A stretch of 64,000 nucleotides of DNA from assembly GCA_025642065.1 (NCBI GenBank), contig JAODUP010000436.1:124001-188000 (forward strand), in the 5' to 3' direction. This document shows, one piece after another, positions 12,801 through 60,571 of this stretch. A model generated the notes under the pieces. It made no database searches. It was given only the letters and a program-made list of their open reading frames with translations, and was not told where the DNA came from. Every line of letters starts with the position of its first letter. Position 1 is the stretch's first letter. The translations under genes and the position numbers were made by a program. This stretch comes from Paralvinella palmiformis. Lineage: Eukaryota; Annelida; Polychaeta; Terebellida; Alvinellidae.

Positions 12801-15800
12801 GAGGGTGGACTGTCCCTTTAAGGAGGATAAATCTACGAACACTTGACAACTGTGTAGTTGTAAACGCAACAAGATCTTAATACAGAGAACAATCATATAA
12901 GATGCTTTAGATAAATACCCTTCCAGTCATTGATCCACAAATCTCACACAAAAAAGGCATAAATATTCTTGTCTAAGAATGGACTTCCAATTACAGTTTT
13001 CTGATTTCCAACCAAGTTATTGTCAATGGTGGCTATGAATAGCATCCATTACAAGATTACGACGTATATACGAGATATGATAAAATAACAAGATCACACT
13101 CTCGGGATTTCACAATTACTGCATCACAGTATTATGGCATAACACCATGTTTCATCGCCAGAGTTAACAATCAGAATGGAATTAATGCACAAGGAGACAT
13201 TGCTAGATTAAGAAGGTGTCAAGTTTTCAGCACAAATTTTAAAAAAAAGCTTTCTGTAAAAAACACAAGAAACCAGCCATGCCAAGTTTGCATAATCACG
13301 TTTCCAAATAGAGTTTCTGTACCAAAAACCGAAAGCTAAGTGGGGTTTTCACTGCTGAGCCAGAAAATATTACTGTGGTAACACAAATTATTTTCTTTAT
13401 ATACCAGGTTGCCTACTAACCATTTCTATTGCTAATCTGTGACCATTGAGGGCAGCATAATGTACGGCACAGTATCCATTATGATCCCTGACACAAGGGT
13501 TAGCATCATGATCTATCAACGCCTCAAGAACCCTGTACGAGAAAGAAATGCTTATTAATAATGATACCAGCATCTAAATGATAACATGTATAAATATCAT
13601 TATATTACCAACTGTGTGTGCATGCGTATACAAAATATGATAAAACCCTATTGCCGGTGACTTACTGTGCATTTGTATCAAAGCCAGCTGCATAATGTAG
13701 TGGCGTACAACCTTGCGTATCAACGACGTTAATATTAGCTCCACGAGCTATCAGCGTCATTACACAGGAATGGTTTGTACGAGCTGCGGCATAGTGAAGT
13801 GGCGTCCTATAAAATGCAAGCATCAACCACAATCAGTTCTAAGACTAACAAATAATCAGTCCTAACCTTTCCGTTCTCTACTCTACACCAGCCAAGTCAA
13901 CAAGTACTGAATAGAAATTCCATAACATAACATCCATACCAGCACGGAACTGATAATTAACCAAACCTAACTGTCAGAATCACCTGACATTTCTAGCTTA
14001 ACTAGCACGGAACAATGAAATCACATTCTAAACACCACTACACTAACCTGCCATCCTTGTCAACTAAATTTACATCAGCACCACCAGTCAACAATAACTC
14101 TACGACATCAACATTACTGAAATACCAAACATTAACATGTTTTGGAACAAAATAGTACACAGAGAATAATAGAAAGGTATTCAATAATTTTTACTGCCTA
14201 CTCTGGAGAACTGTTAATAAAGGTTTGTGAATGACAAACTTGCACTGTTTACAATACTGGGCTCCATTTAAATTTCTTAGCATTTGAAATGTTGCATTCT
14301 AATGGTGTTATGATAAAATACCCAGCGCATGCTGCAGCATGTAGACAGGTTCTGCCAGACGCATCAGGCGTGTCGATGTCGAGACCATGACAAGCTTCCA
14401 TCAGCCTTCCTACGCAGTCTATGTAACCATTAAGGGCTGCCATGTGTACTGGTAACATTCCTGAACTACCTCGTCTGTTATAATAATTATCGCATTAACA
14501 TAATACACATGTTTATAATAATAACAACAATACTGATGACAAAAATATTAATGTAGTTTGGATTTATGCCAACCTTTTATCTAAAGCATTTCCAGGTATT
14601 TTACAGCAATGAAAAAGCTATGTATGCAACTTCACATACAGAGATAAAATATGGGAAAGTGATAAAATTGGATCAAATAAGTAGATGTGAAAAATCAGTT
14701 AAATTGTCACACAGGCTAATGTTTTCATAACAATACAAGGAAATAAATCACCAGAGATTAGCCATGCTGAATACAGCACTGATCAAGAATACAGAAACAG
14801 CTTAACATAATGCTGGATACAAGCTTCCATCTTGCTTCTAATTATTTGTAAAAAGTTACTTATGTTCAAAACGCTTTAAATAAATGTCTACCATTAATGC
14901 CTTTTGTTGTCATTTATACAAGTAATGACTGATTCAATAAATATAATTTTTTTAACAAAGAACATAATCAATATATAATGTAATAATATGAACAGCTTGT
15001 TATTCCTGTTCTTTTGACTCCAAGAATAATTAGAAAAAAGGCCATTAAAATAAAACAAGATACTACACAAAATCAAATTATATATATATGTGCACCATTA
15101 TATCAAAAGTATTCACTATAATTATGCATCTTACTTATCCACCCAGTTTAGCAAATGAAATTGAAATAAGGTGCCCGAGATATTCCAAGTGGCGAAGATT
15201 ATAATTGAACCCATAATGTAAGTTATGTAACAAGTGTGAAGTTTATTATATGAACTGGCCCTTAATAGAAGTAAAACACAGATATTCATCATTCTTAGCA
15301 GCTGACATGACACAAATTCAGAAACCGTATGATACTTAATTAAAAAAATTCTGAAACAGGATAAAAATGTGGTAACAGGCAAAAGGTGTGTATACATATG
15401 ATATATTCATCAGATTTACAACATGTATGAAACAATAATATCAAAAATCGAAATTAACTTAAAAAACTGGCAGCATACTTTTGCTACCAGTCTTTTTGTC
15501 AGGCAGCAAATACAATGTCCAGGCAGCAAATTTCATGGAGGTGTTTAATTGTAATACATTAGTTATTCAATGGGGCCTCATTATTAAATCATCCATGTCC
15601 ATGAAAACAACCCTGGAAAATGCTCTAATTATACTTGACCCAGATTATGCAGGAAAAATTTCATAAATACATCACAAATATGTCATGATAAAAACATATG
15701 TGGCAATCACTAATTAATCAATAACTATAACACAATACCTACTTGTTAGGGTCTGCTTTATTTTCTAACAAAGCATTTATCAACAACTTATGCCCATAGC

Positions 15801-18800
15801 GAGCTGCTATATGTAATGGTGTGTTATTATCCATGTCAATACCATCTACTGTGGCACCTAAGATAAACAAGAAAAACAACTTTGTGTCAAGTCACATTAC
15901 AGAAGAAGAATATGCCATTCAGACAACTGACAACATACAGAGTGTACTCATTACAACTAATTTAAAGCTTTGTTTATTATAATATAATGCAGCAAGGCTT
16001 ACAAAGATAATAAATACCCAAATAAGTATAAGACAATTTATAAGAATCAGCAATTAAGTTGTTTAGTGGAATCAGTAGCTTCCTCTGAAAGAGAAGGGGC
16101 TGGTGGGAGGAAATTTAAGTCATATCAGAGCAACCTTTATTTGAAATTTACAGTTATTGTGTGAGGGACCCAAAACTAAATTGTTTACAGAAGCAGATAA
16201 GTGAGTAATTGATTATAACAAAATGCTACAACACAAAAATAATCCAGTAACTTGCCATTCTGTATCAGTAATTCTGCCCTAGAAAATCTTCCATGTAAAG
16301 CTGTCATGTGTAATGGTGTTCTGCCATCCTGAGCCTAAAATTTTACATTTATACAAATCAAACATTGCTTCATGTGTGGATGTTGTAGGAAATCATTATA
16401 CTGAAAATTCAACACTTCCTTTTAATACAGTGAGCCACTCACCCTGATATTAGTATTAGCACCTTCATTGATGAGTATTTCCAGACACTGACTGCCATGT
16501 GTCGAAGCAGCTGCATAGTGTAATGGCGTCTAAATAAAAACAACATATTGATAACACGACCTGACCAACTATGTATAAAATCTCTCAGTACTTATCCTCA
16601 TTGAACTAATACTTTAAACTTTCTATAATTTTAATCAGTTTGGACATTTAACATTTTGGCATCTGATAATCAAACAATATTGCTGATGGAACACCAGAAA
16701 TGATATCCCCGGATTAAAATATTCAACATCATGGACACTATCTGCACGTCTTTTCAAGGTTTTTCATGACCAAAAATCAAAACCATGGAGTATCAAAACT
16801 CTCGTATTAGTACTAAAATTATTCATCTGCAAAAACTTCGCTAAGATCCTACCTGTCCTCTGTGATTGAGGGCATTCACAACAGCTCCGTGACCAATAAG
16901 CTCACTAACCACCAGATTCTGGCCATTAAGACAAGCCACATGAAGGCTCGTATTACCAAATGCATTCACAGCATCAACATCCACGCCAAGTTCCAGAAGC
17001 ATTCTCACAATGGTAATCTGACCTCCAGCAGATGCCGCATGTAGAGGTGTAAACAACTGTGAAAAAAGAATACATTAACAGCTATGAAATCATTCCTAAC
17101 AGTTCTGTTATGGTGTTTAGAATTGGATAACAATCATAATCATTAAAAACCTGTTAACTTAGAATACCGAATAAACATGAACAGATAACATAAATTTCTG
17201 AACCAACAGATAATAAAATGTAGCTGTTTCACAGCCAATTTGCTGCATACTGTAGATTAAATGGGCTGAGTGAACTCTAAAAGTAATGGGCCAAAGTGAA
17301 GGTTAAACCCTCCTTCAGACATAGCCCATGTGAGGTTTGAACCCAGGTGCTAAAGGTCTGTGTCCAATTATGCGAGTAGGTAGGCTGTGTAGATGCCCTT
17401 AACAACCGTTATCCATAGAACACAACTATTTTCAGCTACCATGTTACCTGTTTGTCGCTACAGCTCAGCTCTGCACCGAAGTGAACCAAGGTACGAACTA
17501 CTTCCACATGACCCATCACAGCTGCCCAATGTATGGCACGACGATCTTTCTTATCAAAGGCATTCATTGTGGCTCCCTTCTCCAGCAGAAGTTTTACCAT
17601 CTGACAAATACAAGAAAATATTACACTGGATACATTAACAAACCAAATTGAATACATTACCACTAAATCAATATTTAAAAAAGATGTTACTCTATAAAAT
17701 TTAGATGTATGTTCATACAAAGTATCAACACATGTTGTAGGTGACCTCACAGCCTTTTTTAGTTCAGTTAATCAAACAACAAACAAGAGTGGGCCGAGTG
17801 TTCTTTCATATTATAGATCCTAAACATGATGGGACAAATGAATGCATATTAAGTCGACACTTCATAATTATTTTTAGTCTCCTAAACATCAACCACCAAT
17901 AACATAAACCTAACTCTGAATGCTGCCCACTGCATTAAATTTAGGCAAATACAAATGTTGATCCATGTTGTATAAATTCCACAAGAGGTTACTTACATCA
18001 TGATGTCCATTAAAGGCTGCATGGTGTAGACTTGTACGACCAGCCCTATCGGACACATTAACATTGGTCAGAGATGGAATGAGAAGTTCGGCACATTTGA
18101 CAGCATTATTCGCGGCAGCAACATGCAGCGGAGTCTGCCAATTCTTGTCTCTGGCATTGACATCAGCATGATATTTCAACAAAGTCTCGACTGTGTCCTG
18201 AAAAACAAGTGATCCCAGAATATTTATTACAAACAAATATGCACAACTCATTGCCAAATTACCAAAAAACAAAGATCGTTACTTACAGCACTTTTAGAAC
18301 AACAAGCTCTGTGTAATGGTGTCAGCCACTTGTTGTCCTTAGAGTTGACACGCGCCCCATTTATAAGAAGTAGTTCAGTAATCTCAGCTTCCCCGCAGAA
18401 TGCTGCAGCGTGTAGAGCCGTCCTCTTTTCACAATCCTGTATGTGTGCAATGATGGGATTATCAACAAAAGAAAGTAACACACATACACATTACTAGTAT
18501 AAACAACCCGATAGAGGCTACAGCTTGGTTAGTCCAGGGTTGAGATTATGGATCTTACTTTTCAAGTACCATAGGTCCCGGGCATTAAGCCAATACTTTG
18601 CGTCAACATTTTGATTCTTATTTGGGGGTGGGGGGGGCGGTTAATGGCTGGTGCTATTTCAGTGTCAAGAAATCCACTCATCGGGAGAAAAAAATTCAGC
18701 CATCGACTCTAGTAGATCTAGATGCAAACGGATATCAATTGTCATTTTGATTTAAACTCATGCAGTCATGGAGTGAAAATAGAAGTGAAACAAATTGATG

Positions 18801-25008: not shown

Positions 25009-25195
25009 GAAGCCTCCGTGGCATAACCGGTAGGGCGGTCAGTGACAGATCTATAACATCTAGGTTCAAAAGCCGACCGGGCTATCTCCGTAGGGTGTTT
25101 CATCTTTCACTTTGCCTCGTTACCTGTATAGCTCGTTCGGCCCATTTAGTCTACCGTGCGCACGAAAGTTGCCTTAAAACAACATTATTACATTT
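25009..25195 (+). repeat. Full-length SINE copy
   Basis: tRNA-like head with A box around 'tggcataaccggtagggc' and B box 'ggttcaaaagccgac', then the core 'gtgtttcatctttcactttg', 'cggcccatttagtctacc' and 'tgcgcacgaaagttgcc', ending in an A/T-rich tail. Confidence 0.75.
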
Positions 25196-25987
25196 GCCCA
25201 CGACGCGATAGAATTGTTCAAATGGTCTGGAACACTTAGTCATATAAAGTACTCATTATACAGTTTTGAGAATCATTTAGAAACTTATTTCGCGAACCTC
25301 TATTTACTTTTATGTCATTCATTAAAAAACATTATCTATATAGTGTCATATAGAGTATCCTGTAGGGCAATGTCGATAATAATAATAATAATAATTATTA
25401 TTATTATTAATATTTATTAGAAATACATTTAAATGGAAGGTACATTACAATGGACAATCCACCTTACAGTTAATCAAGTTGGATAATACTGCGCTACATG
25501 TAAATAGATGATCACGAATGAATGAATGAATGAATGAATGACTTTATTTTTCTGAACTGTATACATACATGTGTTGACATACAAAGGTAAAGGTTCATGA
25601 ACAGAAGTAAATAATAAATACAATAAGTATACAGCTCACAGATGTAGAATAGAGTCTACAAGAGACCATCCGGCGTAATTAAATTGTTTAAGTAAATACA
25701 TTTATATTATAATTTTAGTTGGAGCCATTCTACAACAGTTTGACATGACAATTACTGATTTATTCCGTAAACCTGATGTTGCCGCTTTGGTGCAGTCCCC
25801 ATAACCCTATCTCACTCATTAAAAGAATATACCGCGCAATAAATACATGGGTGATAAAATAAGATTAATCATCGTAGCCCTCCAGTGTGGATCGTTTGAA
25901 TCTGGATGATAAAACCGCAAAAGATATGTGCAATGAGTTGCGCATATAGATGTCCTGCGTCAAAAGGTTCCATGTTTGAGGACACAT

Positions 25988-27200
25988 TTAGATGATGCTT
26001 TGGCACGCAGCCCAGGTACGTGTTATTTGCACCATTAATTTGTATGCTGTCTGAGTGTCCGGTGTTGTGGCCGTGTTGATTTTGTGATAATCTAAATATG
26101 TGTTTAACGTAGATGGCAATAAGCCTTCAAGAAATGATAGAACATATTTGTTACCTTGTAATTGATATAAGTCTACCAGTTTGAGAAAGTGAAGGTCTTT
26201 AAATATTGGTGTTGTATGTGCTCTGTACTGTGGTCCTGTGATGATTCTGACACTTTTTTGCATTATGATCAATTTTGATAAATGAACATGACATGCTGCT
26301 GCCTATAATATAATGCCATAAGTTATGTATGGATATATTAGGGAGTAATAAAGTGTATTTAAGTATCTTTTTGGCATGATATGTTTAACTTTATTAATTG
26401 CAAAGAACGATGTTGATATTTTCTTTTTCATCATATTAATATGTTCATCCCATTTTAATTTATCATCAATATACAATCCCAAGAATTTGGCACATTTGGT
26501 TCTCTGAATGTTACTGTTATATAGTTGAAGATCTATGTTGGTGTCTTGTTGCTTTTGGTACACGAATAATATGTAATTAGTTTTAGATATATTAAACGAA
26601 AGTTTGTTGGTTCTAAATCAATCGGTTAGATTTAGTTACATTTCAGAAGCTAAATAAACTGTTGCATCATCTGCAAATAATACTGATTTAGTTAAGTTTA
26701 AAAATCTGGGAAGGTCATTAGTATAAACAATGAAAAGCAATGGTCCAAGTATAGAATCCTGTGGAACACGACATTTAATAGTTTCAACGTGAGAATTACT
26801 TCCCAGATAATGAACGGTTTTCTTCTATTATATAGGTAGCTGGAGAACCAGTCTAAAGCCTGTCCTCTTATACCATAACAATCTAACGTTTTCGGTAAAA
26901 TACGGTGATCAATCGTATCAAATGCTTTTGATAAATCTAAATATACAGCTAAAGTTGCTTTGTTTTCATCTAAAGCTTTACATGTATCAGTAATCAATTT
27001 TGTAACAGCGTCTATTGTGCTATGCTTGCGTCTAAAACCAAACTGATTATCATAAAGTAAATCATGCAATTCTAAAAAGAAGCATAATCGCTTGTGTACT
27101 ATTTTCTCAAGTATTTTTGAGACAGAAGGCAGCAATGAGATTGGTCTATAATTAAAAAGGTTTTATTTGGCTTTGGTCTTGTATATTGGTATTGCTTTCG
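25988..27200 (-). pseudogene. LINE ORF2 reverse transcriptase, broken
   Basis: Segments in order: GVFPDSLKIAKAIPIYKTK, LPSVSKILEKIVHKRL, NQFGFRRKHSTIDAV, AVYLDLSKAFDTIDHRILPK (RT motif A), then KFLGLYIDDKLKWDEHI and NKVKHIMPKRYLNTLYYSLI of the thumb, and a C-terminal piece at 26272-25988. Motif C (YADD-like) falls in a decayed stretch around 26640-26700 ('YALFADDATVYLAS' remnant). Several frameshifts. Confidence 0.75.
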
Positions 27201-27514: not shown

Positions 27515-27710
27515 GAGGGGCGCCTCCGTGGTCTAGCGGTAGCGTGTTGGACCACAGATTACTACCACCCGTCTTGGAATATCGGCGTAGCCATATCTGA
27601 AGGTTGTTTCATCTCTGACTTCGCTTCATTACTTTTGGATGTCGCTCGCCCATTTAGCATACCATGTGCACAAAAGTGGCCGTAACACAACAGTCATCAT
27701 CGTATGCACT
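27515..27710 (+). repeat. Full-length SINE inserted in the LINE
   Basis: tRNA-like head with A box 'tggtctagcggtagcgtg' and a degraded B box, then 'gaaggttgtttcatctctga', 'cttcgcttcattac' and 'catgtgcacaaaagtggccg'. It interrupts the endonuclease part of the minus-strand LINE, so it is younger than that element. Confidence 0.8.
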
Positions 27711-28373
27711 TGTGAAATAATTTCGTGCATATTCGTGATGATGTTAGTAGGCCCCGGATCATTCACGGATACATTATGATAAATTTATGTTGCATTTTAA
27801 CCTGTTTCAACGGTGCATATAAGTAAGTTATTGTATTTAATTTATCTGCCTCATTAACATCCATATAATTTATATATCCCCAGTTGACCCATTCAACTTC
27901 AGAAGAAATACGCTATATGGTTCCATGTGTAATTTTTCTATGTGCAAATGTAACTGATTCTCGAGATTTTAATTTAGTTCCTTGGTATGAAATTGCAAAA
28001 AAAAAACACTGGAAATGGTCAGAAATATTTGTACTTATTATACCAGAATATACTCTGTTATTATTGTTTGATTTCACAAGGATATTGTCAATTAAGGTTG
28101 CACTGTTATAAGTAATTCGTGTAGGCTTAGTTATAGTTGGTATAAATGAATTTTTGAATATTGAATATGATAAATTTGTTGTCGGAATATGCGTATCAGT
28201 TTTGAGAAAATCAAAATTTAAATCACTGCCAATAATAACGTTTGGCTTTTGGAGAGCTTGGATAGAATCGTATCATATCGCTCAAGTGATAAAGCAGAGT
28301 TGCTGTTTAGAATGCGATATATTTCACCAACAATGGTTTTTCTCACGGTATTAACCGTTTTAATAAATTTAGA

Positions 28374-28860
28374 TTAAAATTTACCTTCTTCAAATCTTGC
28401 AAGATCATCGCGCAGATTAAATTGTATAGAATCTTTTATGTACATACAAACTCCATCTCTTTGCATGCGATTTTTGTAAATAAAATTGTAACCTGACAAT
28501 CCAAACAAATATGTATTTCCATCATGCAGAAATGTTTCACATACAAGAATAAAATCAGGTTCAATAAACTGGTTTATCAATTCTGATAACAATAACTTAA
28601 GCTCATCAAATTTCGTTGACAACGACTGTATACTTAAATGCAATGCAAAGAAGGATGTTTGTGTTCCGTTAATTCTTTATTCATTTTCATATCATGAGCA
28701 TCATGGTATAAGCTGTTGCCAGTTAAGCACAGTAATGGGTTATCTGCCCCATCTAATTCACCAGAATAACTAATCGGGTGGTAATTCAGATCAAATTCCT
28801 CTTGAGCTATACTATTTAGAGTTGTATTGGGTCTTGACATGGTAAGATAAAGATATTTGT
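28374..28860 (-). pseudogene. LINE ORF2 N terminus: endonuclease
   Basis: A possible ORF2 start (MSRPNTTLNSIAQEEFDLNY, about 28840) leads through a frameshift into SIQSLSTKFDELKLLLSELI, EPDFILVCETFLHDGNTY and GVCMYIKDSIQ. This is the N-terminal half of an AP-like endonuclease, with the N-x-QSL and V-CET motifs (E = metal ligand). Confidence 0.65.
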
Positions 28861-29520
28861 ACTTGATTCTATCCCGATCCCCCAACTCTATACTACAACG
28901 AGGAAATAAATAATAATATGTATAAATGTGAGAGACTAAGGTATCAATAACGAATGCGTTCAAATATATTGACACATATAGTATTATCCAAGGAGCCATG
29001 ATATATTGACAGTGAATCATATACCATGAATACCTATCATTGGTTGGACCTACATCCAATCCATATATGTAATGCCGGTACTACTGGAAATGATGTGCTA
29101 GGTGTAGAATAACGTAGATGTACAATAAAGTTACTCAATCAGGATTGCAAATAAACTAATAGTATTATTGTTTATGACCTATCATTCTGCTTCTCATAAT
29201 GAGTGATTATTATACAACTACACAAACTTATTAGAAGTCTCATACCTGCCCCTTCCATCCCCTACCCCACCTCTTCACCTACCTATACCAACTTCCAAAT
29301 CTAAATATTTCGTACACGATATCAGCTTAAATATAGTTATATCTACAGCCAAGTCGACCAATAACAGACGCACAGCTCATTAACAGGTGTTTTGTCAATA
29401 TACTCATAACATAAGAATGTGCTACAGACGTGTATGCTCAAATATAAAGATAACATGTTATAAGATAATAATAGTACAAACTAAACAGAGCAGTATGCAA
29501 TTGATAATTGGTTAACATGT

Positions 29521-29998
29521 GACAATAGCTTTTATTTCAATAGTTCACAAACTTCCATCAGAGTGAAGCCTTGAATGTTTTCACCAGTCCATCGAGTTCT
29601 TATCCAGTGGCGGGATTGCTCAGTGAAAGTTCAATGCCGAACAAAGTGTCTGATGGACTTTCTTTTCCAATCAGCCTGTTGTCAGTTGCGAGAAGTGAAG
29701 CTTTTAGGTGTTCATTTTGTTAAAATTTAGCTTCAAGTGCTGGTTTAAGTATTTCAATTACATGTTGTTTCCACTTTCCAGGATTATAGTGTGGTAGGCT
29801 GCGCACCATTCGTTTCTGATCTCTTGGTTCACTTGTGTTGAGGATTTTCTCATGCAGCTAATTCTGGCTAAGAGAACAGGAGAGCCTTTTTGTGTGCCAG
29901 ATATTGCTCGACACAATTATACTGGTGATCATCCATATCGAATAAGAAAGGGTAAAAGTTAGAAAGTGGGCTTTCTTTGGCGAAGAAAATTGTTAGCT
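29521..29998 (-). pseudogene. NADAR (YbiA-like / DUF1768) domain remnant
   Basis: Read across frames on the minus strand: LTIFFAKESPLSNFYPFLFD, HQYNCVEQYLAHKKALLF, HYNPGKWKQHVIEILKPALE, QNEHLKASLLATDNRLIG and SPSDTLFGIELSLSNPAT. These match NADAR N-glycosidase motifs (F-xKESPLSNFYP, Y-x-C-x-EQY-x-x-x-KA, P-x-x-W, ASP-D-x-x-WGIG-L-S). NADAR proteins hydrolyse N-glycosidic bonds of riboflavin intermediates or ADP-ribosylated substrates. At least three in-frame stops and two frame changes make this copy inactive. It directly continues the ORF1p-type domain. Confidence 0.75.
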
Positions 29999-30305
29999 CA
30001 TCAGTCTGTATGGAGGACGTTTTATTTTCCGCTTTGGCTCCTCATCTACTGCAGACCTAACAAAATCAGGAACCTTGTCGACATTGTCCACGGAAAATGC
30101 CTGACAGTTTATAATGAGTTTGTCAACTCGTAGATGTGCCGTGACACGGTTTTCATGGTGATTTGGGTCACCAGCACGCGCAGCCCGTAAGTATGGCCAC
30201 AGCTGTTTGCGGCGTCGCTCGATCTCATAAGGATAGTCCTCCTTCACACATATGTGTGTGCCCTTGAAGGCATTTCGCTTGGCCCAGACTCGCTCACGGT
30301 CTGCA
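29993..30305 (-). pseudogene. LINE ORF1p-type (Transposase_22) C-terminal domain
   Basis: Reads YADRERVWAKRNAFKGTHIC, EDYPYEIERRRKQLWPYLRA and VDKLIINCQAFSVDN. This is the RRM/CTD signature of LINE-1-type ORF1 proteins (RxxVWxxRxxLKGTxIxxxEDF...R...L.P....AR), which bind RNA as a chaperone. The N-terminal coiled coil is missing: 30309 upward belongs to another element. A frameshift near 30005 links it to the NADAR-like sequence. Confidence 0.7.
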
Positions 30306-30599
30306 TATTGTATTGCAGACATAAGTACTTGGATGAACAGCAACATGCTGAAATTGAATAAAGACAAGACAGAATTCATTGGTTTTTTTTATCCAAGCAA
30401 CATGTAAAGAAACCTGAGAATCTTCACATTAAGGAAGGATCCAGTTTTATAAATTCTTCCATGTTTGCAAGAAATCTAGGGCTTATTTAGATAATACTCT
30501 AAGAATGGAGAAGTAGGTGAATTCTATATATAAGTCCTGTTATTATAAAATAACAAATATTTGACTTATTCGTAAGTACATAAATGATGAGAATTGCAA

Positions 30600-30990
30600 T
30601 ACTTTAGTCCAAGCCCTTATTATTTCCCGACTGGACTATTGCAATGAATCGTTATATAATATCCCTCTATCTCTGACAAATCAGCTACAGCTTCTAAAAT
30701 ATCTTTACTGGTTCCCTGTTCAATCTCGCATCATTTTCAAACGGTGTTCCATTGCCTATCAAACTCTTTCCCCTGGAGACCCTTCGTATCTATTTTCCAC
30801 ACTTTCTCTAGCACCCAAGCCATTAGTGCTCGGTTCATCTGCTTTTCACTTGCTGTCTGTTTCCAGGATTAAAACTAATGCTGGGATTCGTGTTTTATCA
30901 GTTGCTGTCCTTACTCTTTGGAATTTACTCCCTGAACACGTTAAGTCACGAAATGATCTCGATTATTTTCGCGCTATAGAAGCTTTGTAA
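30600..30990 (+). pseudogene. LINE RT C-terminal fragment (left arm)
   Basis: Forward reading gives QALIISRLDYCNESLYNIPL, LLKYLYWFPVQSRIIFKRCS and RVLSVAVLTLWNLLPEHVKS, ending EAL-stop at about 30990. This is the hallmark C terminus of CR1/L2-group LINEs (LDYCN, 'LHWLPV..RI.FK', 'SVAAP.LWN.LP'). The same sequence continues further 5' only in the right-arm copy. Confidence 0.8.
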
Positions 30991-31300
30991 TTAGTATAAT
31001 AATTATTAAGCCAAGCTGATACCAAAATAATTTATTGATAATATCACTATTCTTATAGAAAATCTTCATTTACAATGTCACAGAGAGATTCACTGAATGA
31101 GACGGCTACATGTTTAATGATATAAACATATACCAAACTATAATTGGGTTATTTATTATTACTTTTCACATAATCAATTTGCCAAATACAGGCTTTCCCT
31201 TAACCTCTACTTTTAGTTTATTGTTGTGGGGAAACAATTTCGAAAGTTGACTTACAGATAATTAGGTTAATTTAGTATGTTATTAAGTAGAGTGTTTATC

Positions 31301-31302
<2 letters not shown>

Positions 31303-31331
<29 letters not shown>
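31303..31331. repeat. (AT)n microsatellite, left arm
   Basis: About 14 TA units; the partner run in the right arm (44427-44528) is over three times longer. Confidence 0.9.
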
Positions 31332-31934
31332 ACACAATAATGAATTTAATTATACTAGAACATGACACAACCAAGGAATTAAAGACTAAAACATTTAGAC
31401 ATTAGCCAAGGCGGCCCAGACAATATTATTATCCCCGACTCAGACCTGAGTCATGTCCTTGATACTTATTTACCTTACCTTTAACAAAACCCATCATTAG
31501 AGTATATCTAGTCTTTGAGCATCACAGCCTAGTTACATATTTACGTCAATTGATTAAAGTACTCAAAAATGCATCATCTAATTATTTTAATTTGTCTGTA
31601 TTAGCTCTAATTAGATGGTAACTTCTTGATATTTTACGAAATTTAATTCGGACATAAAACATAGGCTCTATTATATTAATCAAATTATGAAAATCGATTA
31701 TACCAGATCATATAACCGAAACTCTGAATGTATATCAAATATGATCACGTATCTAGTAACAATCACAAAATAATAATTTACAGAAAAACATTTAAATAAA
31801 TCAAATCAGTCATCATACGTAGTATTATTTATATAATTATACAAGGCTATGTTTACTAATGGTTATATTAATGAACCTTAACTATCCTATTTAACTTATC
31901 AGTCCTCGAAATTGAAATCATTTGGTTATGTCTA

Positions 31935-33060
31935 TTTTACCGGAAACGGTTCTGTCGAATTCATACATGAGGAGACGAGAAGGAATTGGTTCAAAACCCG
32001 AACTGCAATTTAAAAGAAGAAGATTTGATCTGTCTTGTACTGAAATGTAAACCGGCTTCCCTTCGGTTTACTCCAAACAAAGTATTTTTCAGAACTGTAG
32101 ATTTCTTTAGATTCGAGTAAACAGTGTAAAGCTTGTTTCTGTTATAGAAATATATGCCCACAATTCCCACATCGAATTTGCTCTTCCTTCTTTATCAAAC
32201 TTCTGGAACCATCTATTGATTGCCAAACCCGGCATAAACGGCTTGAACGTTTCGTTCTTATGCATTTCGTGAAATCAATCCTGAAAGTTTCGCCATTCGT
32301 TTGGTTTGGGAGAGAATCCCCAAGTCCCCAAAAGACGATAAACAAAGATGTTATCTGTCTTTGGCATGTTGGTCACAGGTCTTATCCTATCTTTAATGTA
32401 ATTAACATTTTCGTCTGTATTGTATATCCTCCAAAACTTGGAACTGTCCTGAAATGGGAATCACCATCTTTAGCCATTTGTAAGTGAGAGATGAAATATC
32501 AATATCATTTCTAGAATTAATGCTATCTCATGTGTGTTCTCACGAGGTCTCCACGTATACACCCACTGACCCATTATATAAGCATTCTCTTGTTGAACGT
32601 GTACACAAACTTGTCCTAATGTCCACTTTAGTTGGAATTATTGAGATATATTCAACATCCACTTTTTTCTAGCCTTCTTTCGATCTATCAATCCAGATAT
32701 CAACACCTACTTTATGTCCTAGAGTGTCCAACTTAGCTACGCGAGAAAGACATTTCCTTAGAGAATCAGGACGACTGAAGGTCAAAACAATTATCCTGAA
32801 ATCTAATTCATCTGGATATTGACATGGTACACCTATCTTACATTTAGTGGTACACATATGTCGTGTTTGCCAAAACTGAGAAACCGTCGTTTTCGAGTTA
32901 CATATCCAAACGATTACGATGTATACGAAGATGAAGCAACACAAAAAGAGAGTTGCTAAATAAATTATTTTAGCGGTGAATAAGATGTCAGCATAGGATT
33001 GAGGTAATACTTTATGACTGAGCCGTAATCCTTGATCAATGTATCCAGGTATTCCACAAT
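31935..33060 (-). pseudogene. Glycosyltransferase-like gene, dead copy A
   Basis: Reverse-strand reading: hydrophobic signal-anchor (CCFIFVYIVIVWIC), then CQYPDELDFRIIVLTFSRPD, LDTLGHKVGVDIWIDRSKEG, then (in other frames) GQWVYTWRPRENTHEIALIL, ENDIDISSLTYKWLKM, LLGTWGFSPKPNEWRNFQD, stop, FHEMHKNETFKPFMPGLAIN. This looks like a type II Golgi GT-A enzyme, with 'IIVLTFSRPDSL' as the nucleotide-binding start and 'ENDID' as a DxD-like site. Breaks: TAG after KEG, frameshifts in 32340-32660, TGG to TGA near 32275, and a 1-bp deletion near 32165. The exact family is not recognised. Confidence 0.55.
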
Positions 33061-33321
33061 ATTGAGACGCGGCATTTATAACTTTTCAGTTTTTTCGGCT
33101 AAATTCTCCCCGACTGATGTAAACCTATTTAAATGACAAAAAAGTTCCTAGAAATTATCTCAGCGTATTATACGTAAACCTCCTTTAAAACTTAGCATTA
33201 TATATCGTAACAAAATTAAGATAAGAACCATATAAATGATATAATATATGTTGTATCGGGAACCCGTGGTGACGTCTTTTGACAAAATATGGATCAACTC
33301 TCTTCGGTTTTGTATTAAATG

Positions 33322-34969: not shown

Positions 34970-35820
34970 CACCTTTTGTTAATATATAATCAGCTGGTAA
35001 GGTACTAAACATTCTACTAATAGTGGTCTGTGAAACACAAAATTCAAAGGCTATAAACCGCTTTGCATATTGAGCCGCTTACGCATAAAAGTCATGAGAA
35101 CAATTTGAAATTTTGTCAGAGATGTTTTCTTTGGTAAGTGAATAGGATAGACAGGACAATAAATGATGACAGACCAGTTAAATACCTGACTTTATCATCT
35201 TTCCATTGAAAATTTCTGGTGTCAGTTCTGACATAAGAGCTTGCTGTTTCAAGTCAATGTTTTCTACCACCCGGGTTTGAATCTCGGCGTGAGCATATCT
35301 GAAGGTTGTTTCATCTTTGACTTCGCTTCATTACCTTTGGAAGTCGCTCGGCCCATTTAGCCCTCATTTTGCACAAAAGTTGCTTTAAAACACCAATCAT
35401 CATCATCATCATCATCATCAATGCATTCTAGTCTCAGCTATTGGAGTTGAGTGGTCATTCCCTCCGTAAGGCTACTGCCTATTTCGGCTTGGGATACCAT
35501 GGACAGTTCTTCTTTCTGTGGGCTGGCTGATGAGGCACCGTCGTCTACATGTTACAGTTGGAGTAACGACAGGGCAGCAGCAATTCTTTCTTTAATACCC
35601 GCTTTTCTAACTTGTGATGGCGCATCCGTTGCATGTTGGGAGATTGACGTTTTTCATGACCCATCTTAACAGTTGGTGTACAGTCTAGTTTGGCTTCATC
35701 AAACAGCAAAGCTGGCTTCCCTGTAAAAATGTCATTAAGGTGTATAATTTCATAATGAAAACTGGATACTACATTGTAGTTTCGATTAATATAAATGAGG
35801 ATAGTACTGGTGTAGATCAA
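34970..35820 (-). pseudogene. DDE_Tnp_4-type transposase remnant (ISL2EU-like?)
   Basis: Minus-strand pieces: GKPALLFDEAKLDCTPTVKM then GHEKRQSPNMQRM; after the SINE, ALMSELTPEIFNGKMIKSG; then RFIAFEFCVSQTTISRMFST, an HTH segment. The order 'D-x-x-PTxxxGH', 'ELTPExFxxx', then an HTH with 'VSxTTVSRxF' is typical of metazoan DDE_Tnp_4 transposases of the ISL2EU/Harbinger kind. The catalytic DDE part is not seen. The family assignment is from memory of the pattern. Confidence 0.45.
35262..35425 (+). repeat. SINE copy inside the transposase remnant
   Basis: B box 'gggtttgaatctcgg', then 'atatctgaaggttgtttcat', 'gacttcgcttcattaccttt', 'gtcgctcggcccatttag' and a (ATC)n tail at 35396-35421. The A box is eroded. 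Confidence 0.8.
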
Positions 35821-36129
35821 TATTATTGTTGAACCCTACTTAATTATCATTAATTCTTCGGTGTTTATTCCTGTCTAATTTAATATCTAAACAAATTTAC
35901 AATATTTAAGCGGTAATAGAATAGCGGTAATACAAATACTACTTCTAATCCCTTCTTTTACCTAATACTTCATGGAGAAAATACACATCAACCATATTAA
36001 CAATTATCACATCATATACTTATTCGAAATCTGCAAGTGAAATCTTAAACATACCGGTATGCTGTATTACATAATAAAGTTCAATTCGTGTGTGTACTAA
36101 CACATTTAACAAAGTCCATTTAGTTTCAT

Positions 36130-37330
36130 AATCTGCCAAGTAGCTTGGACGTTTCCTGGCGCGACTTGGGTAAGACCGTGGAATTACCGGCGTAGACATC
36201 TCATCTGGTGTCGGTGTTATTAGCTAGCTGATTCCACTAGGATGGGTGACGATTCTACCCCCAATTGGTTCAACCAATTCAGCTGGTTGTGTCACATGCT
36301 CTCTCACTGGATCAGATAGTTCCACACCTTCTGGCAGTTGTGGAACAATGCAAGCACTTTCCAAATCCTCTTTTTCGACAATCTTCCTCAAATTATCCCG
36401 TTGGTGGTGAAGCACACGACATTCTTTAAGACGTACTTGATAAGAGTAAGTCCGGATTTATCAGTCACCTGACCTTCTCTATGCTAATCAACAATAATCA
36501 CTTTTCTTCCAGAATGAAAGAGCTCGCCCGACGACGCATGTCGGCGTAGGCTTTCTATTGACCCTGGTGATCAAAAGCTCGCTCTTCAACGTGAAGTGAC
36601 ATACATCCTAATGGATATCTGAACTGTCGCTTCAGTAATAGCTTAGCTGGAGAAACACCTGTTGCAGAGTGTGGTGTGTTCCTGTACTGAAACATGTCCT
36701 CTTCTCATACATCTTCTGGAGGTCTTGACAGCATTTCCGCCAAACCATTCGACGCAGGGTGTAGAGGTGAAGTATAAATTAACCTGATTCTATTACTCCT
36801 TGTAAATTCATGAAATTCCCTTCCGGTGAATGATGTTCCATTGTCTGTAATGATAATACTAGGCAAGCCATGTTTAGCAAATACTCGACGGCACAATTTT
36901 GCAGTGACATGAGCTGTTGATATTGAAGTGGGTATCACTTCCAACCACTATGACTAAAAGTCTATTATATTCAGGTAGATTTGCCCCCAAAATGGTCCAG
37001 CTTAGTCTAAGTGTAAACGCATCCATGGCTTATTTGACCAATGCCATAGGTGTACTGGGGCCTTATCTGGTTGATCGCGTTGTTCTTGACATTCATGGCA
37101 AGATCTTACCCTAAGATCTATCCCTTCATATAACTTTGGCCATCAGACAAAACGTCTTGCTAACCCCTTCATGCGTACAATTCCTGGATGAGAAGAGTGC
37201 AACTCACGCAATACTGCTACTCGTCACTGTGCAGGTCGACCACACGATTTCCCCATAATAACACTCTATTGTGAACACCTAACTCGTTTCGGCGATTAAA
37301 GTATAGCTTTAAAGTAATATCAGTCAATGT
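36130..37330 (-). pseudogene. Gypsy integrase and C-terminal tail
   Basis: HECQEQRDQPDKAPVHLW, RLHLD-stop-AGPFWG (first Asp), TDNGTSFTGREFHEFTRSNR (second Asp), TSPLHPASNGLAE (Glu) give a complete DDE set interrupted by stops. The tail includes a 63-codon open piece at 36415-36224 and ends near 36060. Confidence 0.75.
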
Positions 37331-37336
37331 TCCTGG

Positions 37337-37900
37337 TCATCCGTTCATGCCGTAATGAAACACTTTAGACAAAACTGGTTCCATACGCGTCCATTTTCTG
37401 TTTTCCGTAGTTAATAGAGTTTTTAATAAGATGTCCAACAAATATAAAACGTCTGTTGGTAGAGTGTTCTCCAAGATGTTATCGGATAATGGCAGACGAC
37501 TTAATGCATCCGCATTGGCATAGGCCTTTCTGTGACAAAATGTCATTGTATAATTGTATGCAGTCAGCGTTAGCGTCCATCTTTGCACTCTTGGAGATGG
37601 CGTGGGTGGTAGGGCTTTTCTTCCATTGAATAAACTGTAGAGAGGTTTATGGTCACTACAAATGGCCACATGCCGACAATACACATATTGATGAAATTGT
37701 TTTACACCAAATATGATGGTTAGAGCTTCTTTTGCGAATAATTTATTTCTGCTACTGACAATGAACCTTGATGCGTAAGCAATAGCTTGATCTGACCCAT
37801 CTGTACATCTTTGTGACAATACACTACCGACACTATATGGTGAAGCATTTGTACTGTACTCAAGACCAACTACCGGTCTGTGTCATAGTGGACAAGAACC
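37337..37900 (-). pseudogene. Gypsy RNase H and integrase zinc-finger linker
   Basis: GLEYSTNASPYSVGSVLSQR, AIAYASRFIVSSRNKLFAKE, KQFHQYVYCRHVAICSDHKP and YANADALSRLPL: the RNase H fold with the conserved 'KEAL...F...SDHKPL' and 'ADALSR' marks. The strand is open over 160 codons (37819-37340). Confidence 0.85.
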
Positions 37901-37956
37901 AGCGAAGAGTGTAATATATTCTTTGTCGATTCAAACGTATCTTTTTTGGCTTTACC

Positions 37957-38480
37957 TCACTTGCAAGACACACGTTTGCGTAGCAACACGTGCAATGTGG
38001 CTAAACGTGATGAGAAATCTGTCAGAAATCTGCCATAATAATTCAATAAACCCAGGTACGATCTAAGTTCAGTAACATTCCTAGGCGCAGGTGCTGACTC
38101 TGTAGCCTGCACTTTCTCATCTGTAGGATGTAAGCCATATTGATCAATTTTGTAATCCAGATAAATGACAGATTTTGGGTTAAATGTACATTTGTCTTTA
38201 CGGAGCCGTAGACCAGCCGTTGACAATCGACTCAATACCTTGTCCAGACTACGCAAATTATCTTTTCCTGTCGGTCCAGCGACAAGAATGGTATCTAAAT
38301 AACAATAAACAAGGGGAATACCCTTCAGTAAGTTATCAATTGTATGTTGGCACAATCCTGGAGATGCAGAAACCCCAAATGGTAAACTGGAATATTCAAA
38401 TATGCAGCCCACCTAGACTGTTTTACTGCAGATATTACTCCAAGATAAATTAAACGGTCAATTTCTTGATCCACCCTCTC
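37957..38480 (-). pseudogene. Gypsy reverse transcriptase, internally deleted
   Basis: ARPLPYALRERVDQEIDRL, LGVISAVKQSRWAA, then a jump and frameshift to FEYSSLPFGVSASPGLCQHT, VYCYLDTILVAGPTGKDNLR and LRSYLGLLNYYGRFLTDFSS. The segment with the first catalytic Asp (LDLSxAYxQ) is missing, and the YLDD box reads YLDT, so this RT lacks all but one catalytic Asp. Confidence 0.8.
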
Positions 38481-38698
38481 CCTCAAAGCATAAGGTAGGG
38501 GTCTAGCTTTATAAAACGAGGATGTGTTGATTCATCAACCAGAATATGGTTCCTCATTAGTACGATCTGTAAGATTGTGAGTGCAATAGTTTTGACCTTG
38601 ACGCGGATTTTTGAAATGTTTATTTTTGAGTGCTTGACCCGATGCGTGTTTAACAAGGCAAACATTTGCTATACAACCTCTTCTTCCACAGTTATAAC

Positions 38699-40502
38699 TA
38701 AGGATGGGACGTTTTTTAAATATATTTTCGATTCGATTTTCGATATTTAGTCCACGGTTCGATTTATTCACAATACTTTACTCAAGCATCCCGATAATCA
38801 CACAGACTTTTAAATAAACTAATTTAAAAAAGTTTAAAGCAGAAACTTTATTTCTAATAAAGACTTAAATGAATTGATGGTAAAAACAAATGATATGACT
38901 AGAAAAGAAAAATACCCTTTTGGTAATATCTAAACTACATGAAGATCACATGAAATGACTTTATGAACTAAAGTTCAAAGTTTTTGTTCAGAAAGACCAA
39001 CCTCAGTGCTGTGACTACATAGCTTGCTGTTGAGCAAACCCTCTGGCGTGGAACTGAAGTCCCAGGGATGGCGAGATAACACTGGGCCAGTTTGCCCAGC
39101 AAAGGAGGCTGAGAGGATTTCTTTCTCCACCAGTTTTTGGCATAATCATTCAGCAGAATGGGGATATCGTTCCTGTAGCTGGCAATCTCATGGTCTATTT
39201 GTGATGTCAGTGATTGAGTTGTGGCCTCACTAGCACCTGTCATCAGAACATCTGACCAAGATAAATCCTCTAATGCATTTATTTTTGGCTTTGGTTCATG
39301 AATATCTGAATCATATTCCACCAATACAGACGTGATTCCAGTTCTTCTTTCATGTGAAAAGGAATGACTTCAGGGCCATCCTCCTCCCTAACTAGTGCTG
39401 AATGATAGGAAAGTAAGATAGGGAGATTAGGCCTGGATCGTAAGTTTAGTTTAGACACATGAATATTAATACACTAATTACAAGTACTAACTTTAGTAAA
39501 AAGAAATAGCAGAAACATAAAAATTACTTCAGGAACATATACCTAAATTAGCGTTAGCTATTAGTTAAGCCCACATATGAAATAAAGAACTTAAGAGGAG
39601 GCTGCCAGATCCACTTCCCAAAGAACCGACACTATAGACAGTGTAGTGTGAGTTATAAAGTTATTAGAGAAAATAGTTAATATGAGTTGACAACCAACGG
39701 TCCGTAACTACCCACTTGGCTCTATTTAATTAACTGGCAACTCATAAATATAGTAGGGTCTATATTGCATGCCTCATACTTTGGCTCCAGAACATGTAGA
39801 AGTTCCTTAAATCCTTGCTTCTCCACCACTGTGTATGGTCTCAGATCTGTCACTATGAATTTCCCAATTTGGTTTGTGATGACAGTCAATCGTGAAGAGT
39901 TGAACGGCATCTTTTCTAACAAGTGATGCTTCTCTCAAAGATTGTTGCTTTTCTACGGGATTTGAAAGTGGCTTGCTGTCACTGTCAGATAGACGTGTAT
40001 ATGAAACCAAAACTAGCAAAAGCGAAGTTGACGAATATTCCGGGTGGTGTCTGTTTAAATGGTGGATCGTGTTCATAGTATTTCCAGACTTATGTTACGA
40101 TCCTACAAATCCGACAGACAGTTAGTTCTCTTCCACTCTCAGATATTTCTGTCATCGTGTGGCCGAAATGTTTCCAAACAAATGATTTATACGATTTTGG
40201 AGGCAACAAATTGCCGAGAAACTTTCCACGCTATGCTAACTGGGTTTGATCTGGGATAGCCCATGCAAATATAACGTGCTGTGGAATCGAGCACTGTGAT
40301 TGGCTGAAATCTATGGGTCATCGGAAATCCGCACTGACGTCAATGAAAACGTAACTGGAAATCCGAGATTTTCTCCCATCATTGTCTGAGTGCACACTAC
40401 CAAATCGAAATAAACCGCGATTTTCCAATTGAAGAACCGTGAATGGAACCGATTAACCAAAACCACGAATACCATGAATCGCGATTAATCGTCGCATCTC
40501 CA
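38699..40502 (-). mobile_element. Non-autonomous hAT transposon with 8-bp TSD
   Basis: 1804 bp flanked by GTTATAAC (38691-38698) and GTTATAAA (40503-40510). Ends TAAGGATGGGACG and, inverted, TGGAGATGCGACG. Inside, reading minus: BED-finger tail IHHLNRHHPEYSS, ITNQIGKFIVTDLRPYTVVE, GFKELLHVLEPKYE, then directly the C-terminal hAT dimerisation domain NDYAKNWWRKKSSQPPLLGK, LAQCYLAIPGTSVP. The central catalytic DDE region of a ZBED/hobo-type transposase is deleted. It lies within the Gypsy zinc-knuckle region. Confidence 0.8.
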
Positions 40503-40664
40503 GTTATAAAACTTTTGAAACATTTTTGAATCTACACGAATTAGATTCGTGTGTACCTCCACAATACACACAATTCAATTTTTAGAAGCAGGCTTCTATT
40601 CGGTAACTGTAATGAGTTTTCTTATTAAGTTTGTTAACTTGTGATGATGAACCATTAACCTCAT

Positions 40665-41130
40665 TTACAGATCCAGTTGCTTTTTGGGTTTCATGCAAAT
40701 CTTGCGTCTATGTATACGATCATCTGCTATGCCGCAAACAGTGCGATCACAAATAATTTCATCCAGCATTGAACCAAATTCACAATACTCAGACAAGCGT
40801 CGCAGTTCCGCAATATACATAGACACAGAATCACCACTTGTCGCATGTATTAAGTTTGTAGAGTTGAAAAGTTTAGAAGGCTTGGGACAAAAATTAGTTT
40901 GTAGAGTCTTACACAAATCTTTATAAGTTTTCTTACATGGTTCTTCTGGGGCCACCAAACTTCTCATGAGAGGATAAGTTTTAGCACCACACATTGATAG
41001 AAGAACTGCTCTCTTTTAAGCATCATCTATATCATTAGCAATGCAATATCGATCAAGGCGTTCTTTATACTGAGTCCAGGACTCAATGCTACTGTCATTA
41101 AATTCTCCTATTTTCCCGAAAAGCGCCATT
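40665..41130 (-). pseudogene. Gypsy gag
   Basis: Starts MALFGKIGEFNDSSIESWTQ, the usual opening of gag in K02A2.6-like Gypsy elements, followed by YKERLDRYCIANDIDDA, a TAA stop, KRAVLLSMCGAKTYPLMRSL, and LRRLSEYCEFGSMLDEIICD with RTVCGIADDRI. One in-frame stop around 41020. Structural capsid protein of the element. Confidence 0.8.
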
Positions 41131-53700: not shown

Positions 53701-55869
53701 AATAACCCGCTTTTATATATTTCGACCAATGGGGCCATTTGGATGCCATCCACTGACTGGCATTGATCATTCATGATACATAAATGATTTGAGAATATTC
53801 CTAGCCAAGGCACCATGTTGCAAAACTTTAACAAGGGCGTCTGTGAAAACGTTAATCTTAAGGTTAATGTGACGTTAAACTCACGAGTTGCACGGATTTA
53901 TATTTTAATATCACAGAATGTTAATAGAAATTCAGTTAATAATAAAAGCAAATTATACTAAAGTAGAGGTATCTAATCATCTGAAACACCTGATTTGTTT
54001 TAGTGTGGAGAAATCATCGCTGTACGTTTGGGCTTAGAATATGTGAGAGCTACCGATACTGTATCTGTGTGTGTGTGTGTGTGTCAACATTTGGTGAAAA
54101 ACTAAATCCAATTTAAAGTAAACGTTCGTAAACTTGAACTTAACTATAACTTAATCGCCCAGTTGACCAATTTGTCTAATTTTCACCACCAGCAACAATA
54201 ACGTCGTAAAAAACAGTGGAAATCAACAATCACCACCAGGTGGCTGTGCTCAATAGGCGACAGCCAGGGATCTCTATCCCAAATTATAGGAGAGAGATTC
54301 ATCAGAGTTTAATACATGGGTTCCAAACAAATTCTCATTCTATTCTACCCTCTTATTATCGTGTAATTATAATATACAAAGGTTGTCAGTAGTAATATAT
54401 TTAATTTAAATTGCCATGACTAAACAACTCCAACAGAAAATAACAATTCGTGTTTTGATCATTTCATTTTATTACAGGAAGGATTTGCTGGCAGCAGCCG
54501 AAGAAAGTTAGACGCCAACTTCATCTTGGAACCAAAACAATCCGAGAATGTGTCAGATAACAAAGAGAGCTGCGAGCCGATGAAGAACAAAAAATGCAAA
54601 TTGAAGATTTTCTTCCTCATTGTGTTTGGTTTGAGTGGCATTTGGTGCGCGTTGGCAATAGGCGCCATTTTAGCTTTGGCGTCGCTGGTGTCGTGGTTTC
54701 ACGCGGTATGCATACCGGCCAGTTTGTTTTTGCTGTCTCTCTGCTGGCATCCACTGGTACAAGTTTACATCGTCAAGTCAGCCGATGGTACCCTGCTCGG
54801 CAGATGGAAAGCTACCTGTCTCTATACCATCATAAGGGCATTAGTGATTTTCATGGCTCTGAATATTACTATGCTTGTCCAGCTCAGACAACATGGCATT
54901 TTAGATAGGATGTTCTTCACCAGTTTGTGGCATGGGCTAAAGTCCTGTCAACAGCCCGCCATATTGTATCCGATGTTATCCCATTTAGCTAGCGGCCTTG
55001 GTGTACACGTGCTTGGCTACGTTGGGGCTGCCTTAGGGCTAGCGGGCACAACACTCTCGGTCCCATTTTTCGTCGCCACTCCGCTCTCGGTAACAATCGT
55101 TCTCTTATTGTGTGGTTCCCTCAACGTGGTCCCCTTCAGTAATGCGCAGTGTTTCGATCTTGGAATCGCGATGTGGTGCGCTTGCGCTCTGGCGCTGATC
55201 TCGTGGCTCGCTCCGATTATCGTGCGAGGTAAGGAGGTCACCAGGAACTGCCACAGCTTACTGATGCCGTTCGAAGAGATCTTCATACAACCATCGTGGA
55301 ATGCCATCTTCATTGAGCAGCACCTATCGCTCAGCTATATGCACGAGGGCATCAGTGCCGAGAAGATTCCGATTGCGGGCGAGGAAGATCCCTGTAGACG
55401 CATCTTCATGTGTACGACGATGTTTCGGGAGGCTGATTTCGAAATGGCCAGACTGCTGTCTAGCATCGCGCAAGTGTCAAGATCAAAGAAACTGTGCAAC
55501 GTCTACATGGAAGCGCACATCTTTATGGACAACGGTACCCAAGATACCCACATCACGGATTTCGGCAGCCAACTGGTGTCACTCTTGGAAGATAAGATTG
55601 GAGTCTCCCCTAAGGATGCGAATGCCTATACGACACCGTACGGAGTGCAACTGAACTGGATGCTTCCTGGCGGAATGCCATTCTTTGTTCATTTGAAGGA
55701 CCCGAACAAAGTGAAGGCCAAAAAACGATGGAGCCAGATCATGTATATGTCCTATGTACTTAACTTTCGAGTTTCGAATTATGACAAGCTGCACGATGCC
55801 AATTTACGTGCCCACTCGTCTGACAGTGGTTCAACGATCGCTGATTCCTTATGTTTAGGTAACTGCTAT

Positions 55870-55965
<96 letters not shown>

Positions 55966-60527: not shown

Positions 60528-60571
<44 letters not shown>

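Follow-up and report, generated by a model that had tools for sequence, protein, structure and literature searches.

The closest described counterparts of the element reported here come from a 2025 paper, the available portion of which places NADAR domains in the ORF1s of Tx1 LINEs of Crassostrea gigas and in a Gypsy element of Ectocarpus (PMC12477816). The type II ORF1, composed of a coiled coil, an RRM and a C-terminal domain (CC-RRM-CTD, Transposase 22), occurs in the L1, CR1, L2 and R1 clades, and ORF1 evolution in the CR1 and L2 lineages has been termed reticulate; in the available text of the same paper the extra domain of these ORF1s is a PHD, and the word NADAR is absent from that text (PMC4120745). 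An enzyme module common to unlike retroelements is known from the SGNH esterase of CR1, L2, RTEX and Penelope elements, according to the accessible parts of two papers (PMC3905857, PMC5408684); NADAR is absent from both. The DarT1-NADAR toxin-antitoxin and YbiA are, in the accessible text on them, bacterial hydrolases with neither an ORF1p nor a mobile element (PMC11543638, PMC11125620). Excerpts of these papers give E88 and K95 as the catalytic residues of the E. coli C7 NADAR (PMC11543638) and a Glu in the last strand as typical of the YbiA family (PMC11125620).

Here we describe a LINE remnant in a 64,000-nucleotide window of the genome of the vent annelid Paralvinella palmiformis (C1971:124001-188000 of the 594,056,205-base assembly G000, which was used for own-genome searches). 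It resembles the C. gigas elements in having a YbiA-family NADAR in a LINE ORF1, but the oyster elements were assigned to Tx1 in the paper, whereas the reverse transcriptase (RT) of the window reads as CR1/L2-like, a comparison made from the published description. The Ectocarpus Gypsy is also a retroelement with a captured NADAR, but it is an LTR element with the domain in another position. The ORF1p core is that of the type II ORF1 LINEs of the CR1/L2 lineages, with NADAR rather than PHD as the extra domain, and the enzyme module is NADAR rather than esterase, an SGNH or SGNH-like domain accompanying it in two other families. With the bacterial hydrolases the family shares the fold, the catalytic Glu and Lys and the YbiA-type last-strand Glu. 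Among the matches listed in the open PMC literature, PMC12477816 is the one paper that treats NADAR in transposable elements; for CR1/L2-like LINEs, Penelope-like elements and CCHC-SGNH proteins those matches contain no report of the domain. The following appear to be new: a CR1/L2-like LINE whose type II ORF1 carries NADAR; the presence of NADAR, in this genome too, on L1-type LINEs and on a probable Penelope-like element; and a family of CCHC-NADAR-SGNH proteins.

Structure of the window copy

A broken ORF1 occupies 30328-29535 on the minus strand of the window, with NADAR following the terminal part of a type II (L1-type) ORF1p (Table 1). An uninterrupted database relative of 419 aa, P0001, aligns through its residues 157-419 with this entire stretch (tblastn, 78% identity), confirming a proposal made from the sequence alone that the ORF1p runs into the NADAR as one reading unit; the feature had been delimited as 29521..30305, the upper end of which is 23 bp short. 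Because the P0001 alignment begins at residue 157, the window copy is without ORF1 residues 1-156, comprising the predicted coiled coil and most of the RRM. In the minus-strand translation, what is left of ORF1 is broken by in-frame stops and by frame changes, three of each. The window copy is a 5'-truncated two-ORF LINE and is dead, as that reading had supposed. The element has an AP-type endonuclease (EN), weakly matched by profiles in the window, together with RT in ORF2, 5' truncation and a short 3' tail, as in a LINE. Its anatomy is almost certainly that of a type II ORF1p (predicted coiled coil, RRM and C-terminal domain, CTD) with a C-terminal NADAR in ORF1, EN-RT in ORF2 and a (CATT)n tail. 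No common word of at least 7 bp, such as would represent a target-site duplication, was present between the two flanks examined.

Table 1. Features of the NADAR-bearing LINE remnant, in window coordinates
Feature	Position	Strand	Basis
Type II (L1-like) ORF1p remnant, RRM end and C-terminal domain	30011..30328	-	tblastn with P0001 from residue 157; E 1.1e-33 with an ORF1p profile of its database relatives; family profile matches human L1 ORF1p
Broken NADAR domain, C-terminal in ORF1	29535..30005	-	three PF08719 pieces in collinear order; 61.1 bits when stops are passed over; P0001 to residue 419
ORF1-ORF2 spacer, same element	28841..29534	-	alignment with L009 and L024; L015 in pieces only
ORF2 start and broken AP-type endonuclease	27913..28840	-	weak PF03372/PF14529 matches below cut-offs; collinear DNA
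Short SINE-like repeat inserted in window copy	about 27517..27701	.	skipped by L009 and L024 alignments; more copies in window
Broken reverse transcriptase, jockey-superfamily-like	25988..27162	-	PF00078 E 3.8e-18; DNA collinear with L009, L015 and L024; motif VPQDSILGPLLF
3' end: AATAAAG, then (CATT)n tail	25516..25548	-	read in sequence; similar tail in L009 and L032

The 5' edge of the remnant adjoins another repeat, namely the edge of an inverted repeat of about 3 kb (30310-33246 and 45530-42933, 91.6 and 95% identical) that contains the end of another LINE RT. The SINE-like family has copies at 27517-27701, 35261-35404, 1819-1957, 11247-11388, 25084-25184 and 3799-3893, and frames resembling a Ty3/Gypsy element were seen by eye at 36000-41000 on the minus strand. 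The P. palmiformis gene model P0017 (LSH36_436g01022) matches the window in three stretches (100%, 100% and 98.8%) and has, by eye, the appearance of a false fusion between the tail of this Gypsy-like element and the LINE ORF1p remnant. Putative exons of an ankyrin-repeat gene (1500-18500, minus strand) and of a chitin-synthase-like gene (54400-61600, plus strand) were likewise noted by eye.

Identity of the ORF1 domains

The NADAR motifs quoted in the sequence-only reading are present in the minus-strand translation, and the broken domain that they suggested was recovered by profile search. Three pieces of the window match Pfam NADAR (PF08719) in order, at profile positions 9-52, 59-101 and 103-135, with E values of 2.2e-4, 2e-5 and 2.8e-4; each scores under the curated cut-off singly, but in the whole-genome search, with the stops passed over, the domain scores 61.1 bits, the cut-off being 35.1. 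Nine database relatives score 115-148 bits with the same profile.

The ORF1p part had been called Transposase_22-type. No such match was obtained from the window piece at E up to 1, or from any of nine intact relatives scanned, and the ORF1p part of the window taken alone had no Pfam match of any kind at E up to 1. The L1-type identity rests on a profile search of the PDB and on folds. The family profile matches human LINE-1 ORF1p (2ykp, E 6.5e-11) and a NADAR with ADP-ribose (8bau, E 1.4e-35). An AlphaFold2 model of P0001 (54 sequences, mean pLDDT 94.2) has a helix at 7-99, RRM- and CTD-like parts and a NADAR, and the best PDB matches of this model in Foldseek are 8bau (TMt 0.77), YbiA (0.75) and the human L1 ORF1p trimer 2yko_A (0.74); the predicted folds of P0001 are those of L1-ORF1p plus NADAR. 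The family has the L1 ORF1p fold in its RRM and CTD, of which the window retains only the RRM end and the CTD.

ORF1 and ORF2 in one element

Three further copies, L009 (C870), L015 (C1902) and L024 (C2104), are collinear with the window from about 30300 to about 25560 (25736 in L024), a span that covers the ORF1p-NADAR, the spacer, the ORF2 start with EN, and the RT, with an ungapped identity of 87.5-89.0% across some 4.1 kb; among themselves the three can be aligned for about 5 kb. L021 covers a portion of this span (29943-28742). The spacer is 79% identical to L009 at 29467-28890 and 77% identical to L024 at 29472-28890, lying in both between ORF1 and ORF2 of those copies, and the stretch with the ORF2 start and EN (28886-27700) is collinear with L015 (84%) and L024 (87%). 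On the evidence of these collinear copies, the EN-RT downstream of the ORF1p-NADAR is part of the same element, as had been suggested beforehand; NADAR and EN-RT do occur together elsewhere in the genome, albeit in damaged copies. A shared 3' tail had been named as a check: AATAAAGT followed by CATT or ATTC repeats ends three of the five copies examined (the window, L009 and L032), and L015 and L024 break off before reaching it.

RT searches yielded 9657 candidates, 150 of which were scored; among the matches listed, 27 copies, window included, have at least 68% identity. Five of these 27 have a same-strand NADAR match no more than 6 kb upstream, compared with 0.02 pairs expected under random placement, and in a further copy an ORF1p match lies on the opposite strand at a distance of 2.3 kb. 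A proportion of five in 27 fits ordinary LINE 5' truncation. Eight of the remaining copies, the RT-centred loci L029-L036, selected for having no listed NADAR match nearby, showed no EN, ORF1p or NADAR match in the approximately 6 kb upstream of the RT; L031 extends back to about 27914 and the others less far, and as 5'-truncated copies they are neutral on the pairing of ORF1 with RT.

That the NADAR-ORF1p and EN-RT remnants are unrelated insertions, adjacent by chance, was suggested by the gene-free gap of about 0.7 kb and by an L1-type ORF1p next to a non-L1 RT, which looked wrong initially, but it is hardly credible when the span including the spacer is collinear in L009 and L024, in L015 (with the spacer in pieces) and partly in L021, when same-strand pairs so exceed expectation, and when the four copies (the window, L009, L015 and L024) are on four different contigs and diverge by 9-12.5%, which bears on the idea of a shared segmental duplication. 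The collinear genomic copies likewise speak against treating an L1-type ORF1p and a non-L1 RT as separate elements.

Class of the reverse transcriptase

The RT carries the motif VPQDSILGPLLF in the window and VPQGSILGPLLF in L022, which we take to denote the jockey superfamily, CR1/L2 group. The RT piece of the window gives 24.7 bits with L1 ORF2p and 17.2 with R2; the corresponding scores are 51.1 and 40.1 for the jockey-like RT of L012 and 76.1 and 17.8 for the L1-type RT of L014, the last not being like for like with the other two because the L014 match covers another part of the RT. The window RT reads as a member of the jockey superfamily, CR1/L2-like, on the motif, the weak L1 scores and the non-A tail. 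The L1-type ORF1p proposed earlier is upheld in fold, but the RT is not clearly L1-type. Since CR1/L2 lineages have type II ORF1s in the available account of them (PMC4120745), the combination with a CR1/L2-like RT is not odd in itself, unlike the NADAR.

NADAR in other retroelements of the genome

An own-genome search for NADAR gave 364 candidates, 150 of which were scored, and 20 stretches were examined: the 14 best and six further ones, some picked for long frames. An ORF1p match lies directly upstream of the NADAR in 15 of the 20. Same-strand EN and/or RT follows downstream in 13, of which ten are jockey-like (L009, L011, L012, L013 with EN only, L015, L016, L019, L020, L022 and L024), two L1-type and one of another kind (L028). 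Neither EN nor RT was found downstream in five of the 20 (L017, L018, the second NADAR of L021, L023 and L026), and in L025 and L027 the RT is more than 3 kb from the NADAR. Five loci have additional RT or EN matches on the opposite strand or upstream (L011, L015, L019, L027 and L028). A live family elsewhere in the genome had been predicted; a repeated family there is, but all three of the collinear copies, L009, L015 and L024, contain stops in ORF1.

In the L1-type loci, L010 (C394) and L014 (C2078), which resemble one another, ORF1p-NADAR is followed by an L1-type ORF2; a piece of L014 matches human L1 ORF2p with an E value of 2.7e-20 and R2 with 0.019. These two may be the counterpart of the oyster Tx1 elements. 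The remaining locus, L028 (C888; 2043-6334 and 7180-9899), has a 662-aa NADAR frame (66.8 bits) overlapping a 792-aa RVT_1 frame (E 2.2e-10), the pair being repeated in tandem at an interval of 5137 bp, and four 662-aa NADAR frames are among the genome matches listed. By eye, the first frame has an SGNH-like end and the second contains KIHK..GRPIV and GIY-YIG-like stretches as in Penelope-like elements; Pfam at E 0.1 gave neither a GIY-YIG-like nor an SGNH-like match in this locus. From the stretches seen by eye, L028 is a probable Penelope-like element.

Long NADAR frames of 534, 960 and 936 aa were seen at C1470:527154-528738, C1470:363252-364808 and L025:1107-3914 respectively, and C1470 has two or three NADAR matches side by side. 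The frames in C1470 and L025 belong either to host genes or to further element genes.

Database relatives and catalytic residues

A first database search returned 42 proteins, and a profile built from 19 of them brought 119 in a second search; the 148 different proteins comprise 77 with ORF1p core and NADAR, 61 with NADAR alone, nine with ORF1p alone and one partial. The relatives of the window ORF1 have uninterrupted frames. Catalytic positions were located by alignment and by spacing, with E88 and K95 of the E. coli C7 NADAR as reference. The Glu is kept in 76 of the 77 fusions and the Lys in 71, with Arg replacing it in three of the other six; the last-strand Glu is present in 69 of the 71 with a letter at that position, and the conservation of Glu and Lys extends down to about 25-30% identity with P0001. 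The window NADAR has both catalytic residues, with the last-strand Glu replaced by Lys. Across 22 own-genome NADAR rows the Glu-Lys-Glu trio is complete in 12, gapped in two and changed in eight (the window, L015, L010, L014, L018, L019, L026 and L028), and both L1-type loci are without the catalytic Lys. Within families, 13 of the 14 pairs have a NADAR dN/dS of 0.53-0.80 and the other has 1.27, values that alone do not show selection because they are expected for decaying copies; synonymous sites are saturated in a fifteenth pair, which compares two families.

In a NADAR tree of 82 rows, in which near rows were thinned and two long fusion rows and about a dozen NADAR-only rows dropped (the latter mostly fragments placed among fusions), the type II ORF1 label needs five changes, one of them forced by starred branches, with a bootstrap that had not converged. 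A quick tree of 135 rows needs 17, with seven forced, a high count due in part to fragments without ORF1p being counted as NADAR-only.

Other domain combinations were seen amongst the relatives: in P0120, P0131, P0102 and P0132, NADAR is joined with an mRNA cap methyltransferase, with an ADP-ribosylglycohydrolase and, going by Pfam accessions that we take to denote them, with a macro domain and DNA-ligase domains. P0153, P0117 and P0170 have weak matches, far below cut-off, to the NCBIfam NADAR family anti-phage protein NF053876. There was no match in the phage collection (megablast), and no locus was found by search in the viral contigs and genome contigs collections.

A CCHC-NADAR-SGNH protein family

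P0117 and 20 relatives (P0149-P0168), 42-68% identical, bear a NADAR in another architecture. Two CCHC knuckles are visible by eye in the 18 aligned proteins, with no Pfam CCHC match in the family; Pfam GDSL is listed in eight of 11 proteins scanned, above cut-off in one (P0153). The AlphaFold2 model of the family (mean pLDDT 79.8) is usable for domains only, given its pTM of 0.37, and Foldseek matches it to NADAR 8bau and to platelet-activating-factor acetylhydrolase folds. The NADARs of this family form one clade (100/99) in the 82-row tree, whereas those of the ORF1p proteins were not gathered into a clear clade there. These proteins sit on contigs of 1.5-12.2 kb, 12 of the 21 being on contigs of 5.1-7.5 kb, and no RT was seen beside them. 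Judged by their architecture, they are likely to be a second kind of retroelement ORF1.

Possible function of the NADAR domain

Our best overall explanation, a dead NADAR-ORF1p LINE together with a guanosine de-ADP-ribosylation role, has a probability of roughly 0.6. For the role itself we offer a tentative mechanism. Intact ORF1p trimers would coat the element RNA, each particle thereby bearing several NADAR units positioned on RNA; these would strip ADP-ribose from guanosine bases in the element RNA, or in cDNA or target DNA during integration, and so undo a host or environmental nucleic-acid ADP-ribosylation that would otherwise block reverse transcription. A role on the RNA or DNA of the element is in keeping with the occurrence of NADAR alongside several RNA-binding or retroelement proteins. 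The altered Glu-Lys-Glu trio of the window copy and of other own-genome rows weighs against the mechanism, and we know of no annelid host ADP-ribosyltransferase acting on LINE RNA. In the accessible text of earlier work, NADARs remove ADP-ribose from guanosine of DNA and RNA and not from RNA phosphate ends (PMC11833690), and RNA processing was proposed as the role of the transposon-borne domains (PMC12477816). Guanosine de-ADP-ribosylation is ranked above protein targets, a structural role and metabolite clearance, with somewhat less than even odds.

The same anatomy and catalytic residues would equally serve an enzyme that de-ADP-ribosylates proteins (ORF1p, ORF2p or host factors) and so counters PARP-type restriction of the particle, and database NADARs are fused to ADP-ribose enzymes, namely the ADP-ribosylglycohydrolase of P0131 and, in P0102 and others, PF01661, which we take to be the macro domain. 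We consider protein targets distinctly unlikely, as the substrate in the available literature is guanosine in nucleic acids (PMC11543638, PMC11125620, PMC11833690). Of similarly low probability is a NADAR that serves the particle for binding or packing, with catalysis dispensable: Lys or Glu is altered in some database members and in the eight changed own-genome rows, including both L1-type loci, but the near-invariance of these residues in the fusions, even amongst distant ones, argues against it. Destruction of reactive riboflavin intermediates, which the sequence-only reading mentioned, or of another metabolite is very improbable, the NCBIfam label riboflavin biosynthesis intermediates N-glycosidase on three scanned proteins (two above cut-off, P0153 and P0117) being an inherited name and a LINE particle having no link to riboflavin synthesis; to our knowledge, animals do not synthesise riboflavin.

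The guanosine reading can be extended to propose that NADAR has been repeatedly acquired or exchanged by target-primed retrotransposons (CR1/L2-like and L1/Tx1-type LINEs, Penelope-like and CCHC-NADAR-SGNH elements) as a counter-defence against animal guanine ADP-ribosylation of retroelement RNA or cDNA. We regard this as rather unlikely, its probability being lowered by the missing catalytic Lys in L010 and L014.

Some proteins labelled ribA/ribD-fused, P0005 and P0008 among them, are retroelement ORF1s, and a single genome holds at least 150 NADAR matches. Uninterrupted NADAR frames in the RNA-packaging protein of a retroelement place the NADAR of animals in a definite setting that is open to experiment, namely the ADP-ribosylation of guanosine in the RNA or DNA of retroelements. 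Repeated uptake or exchange of NADAR, if true, would bring to light an as yet undescribed animal defence in which guanines of retroelement RNA or cDNA are ADP-ribosylated.
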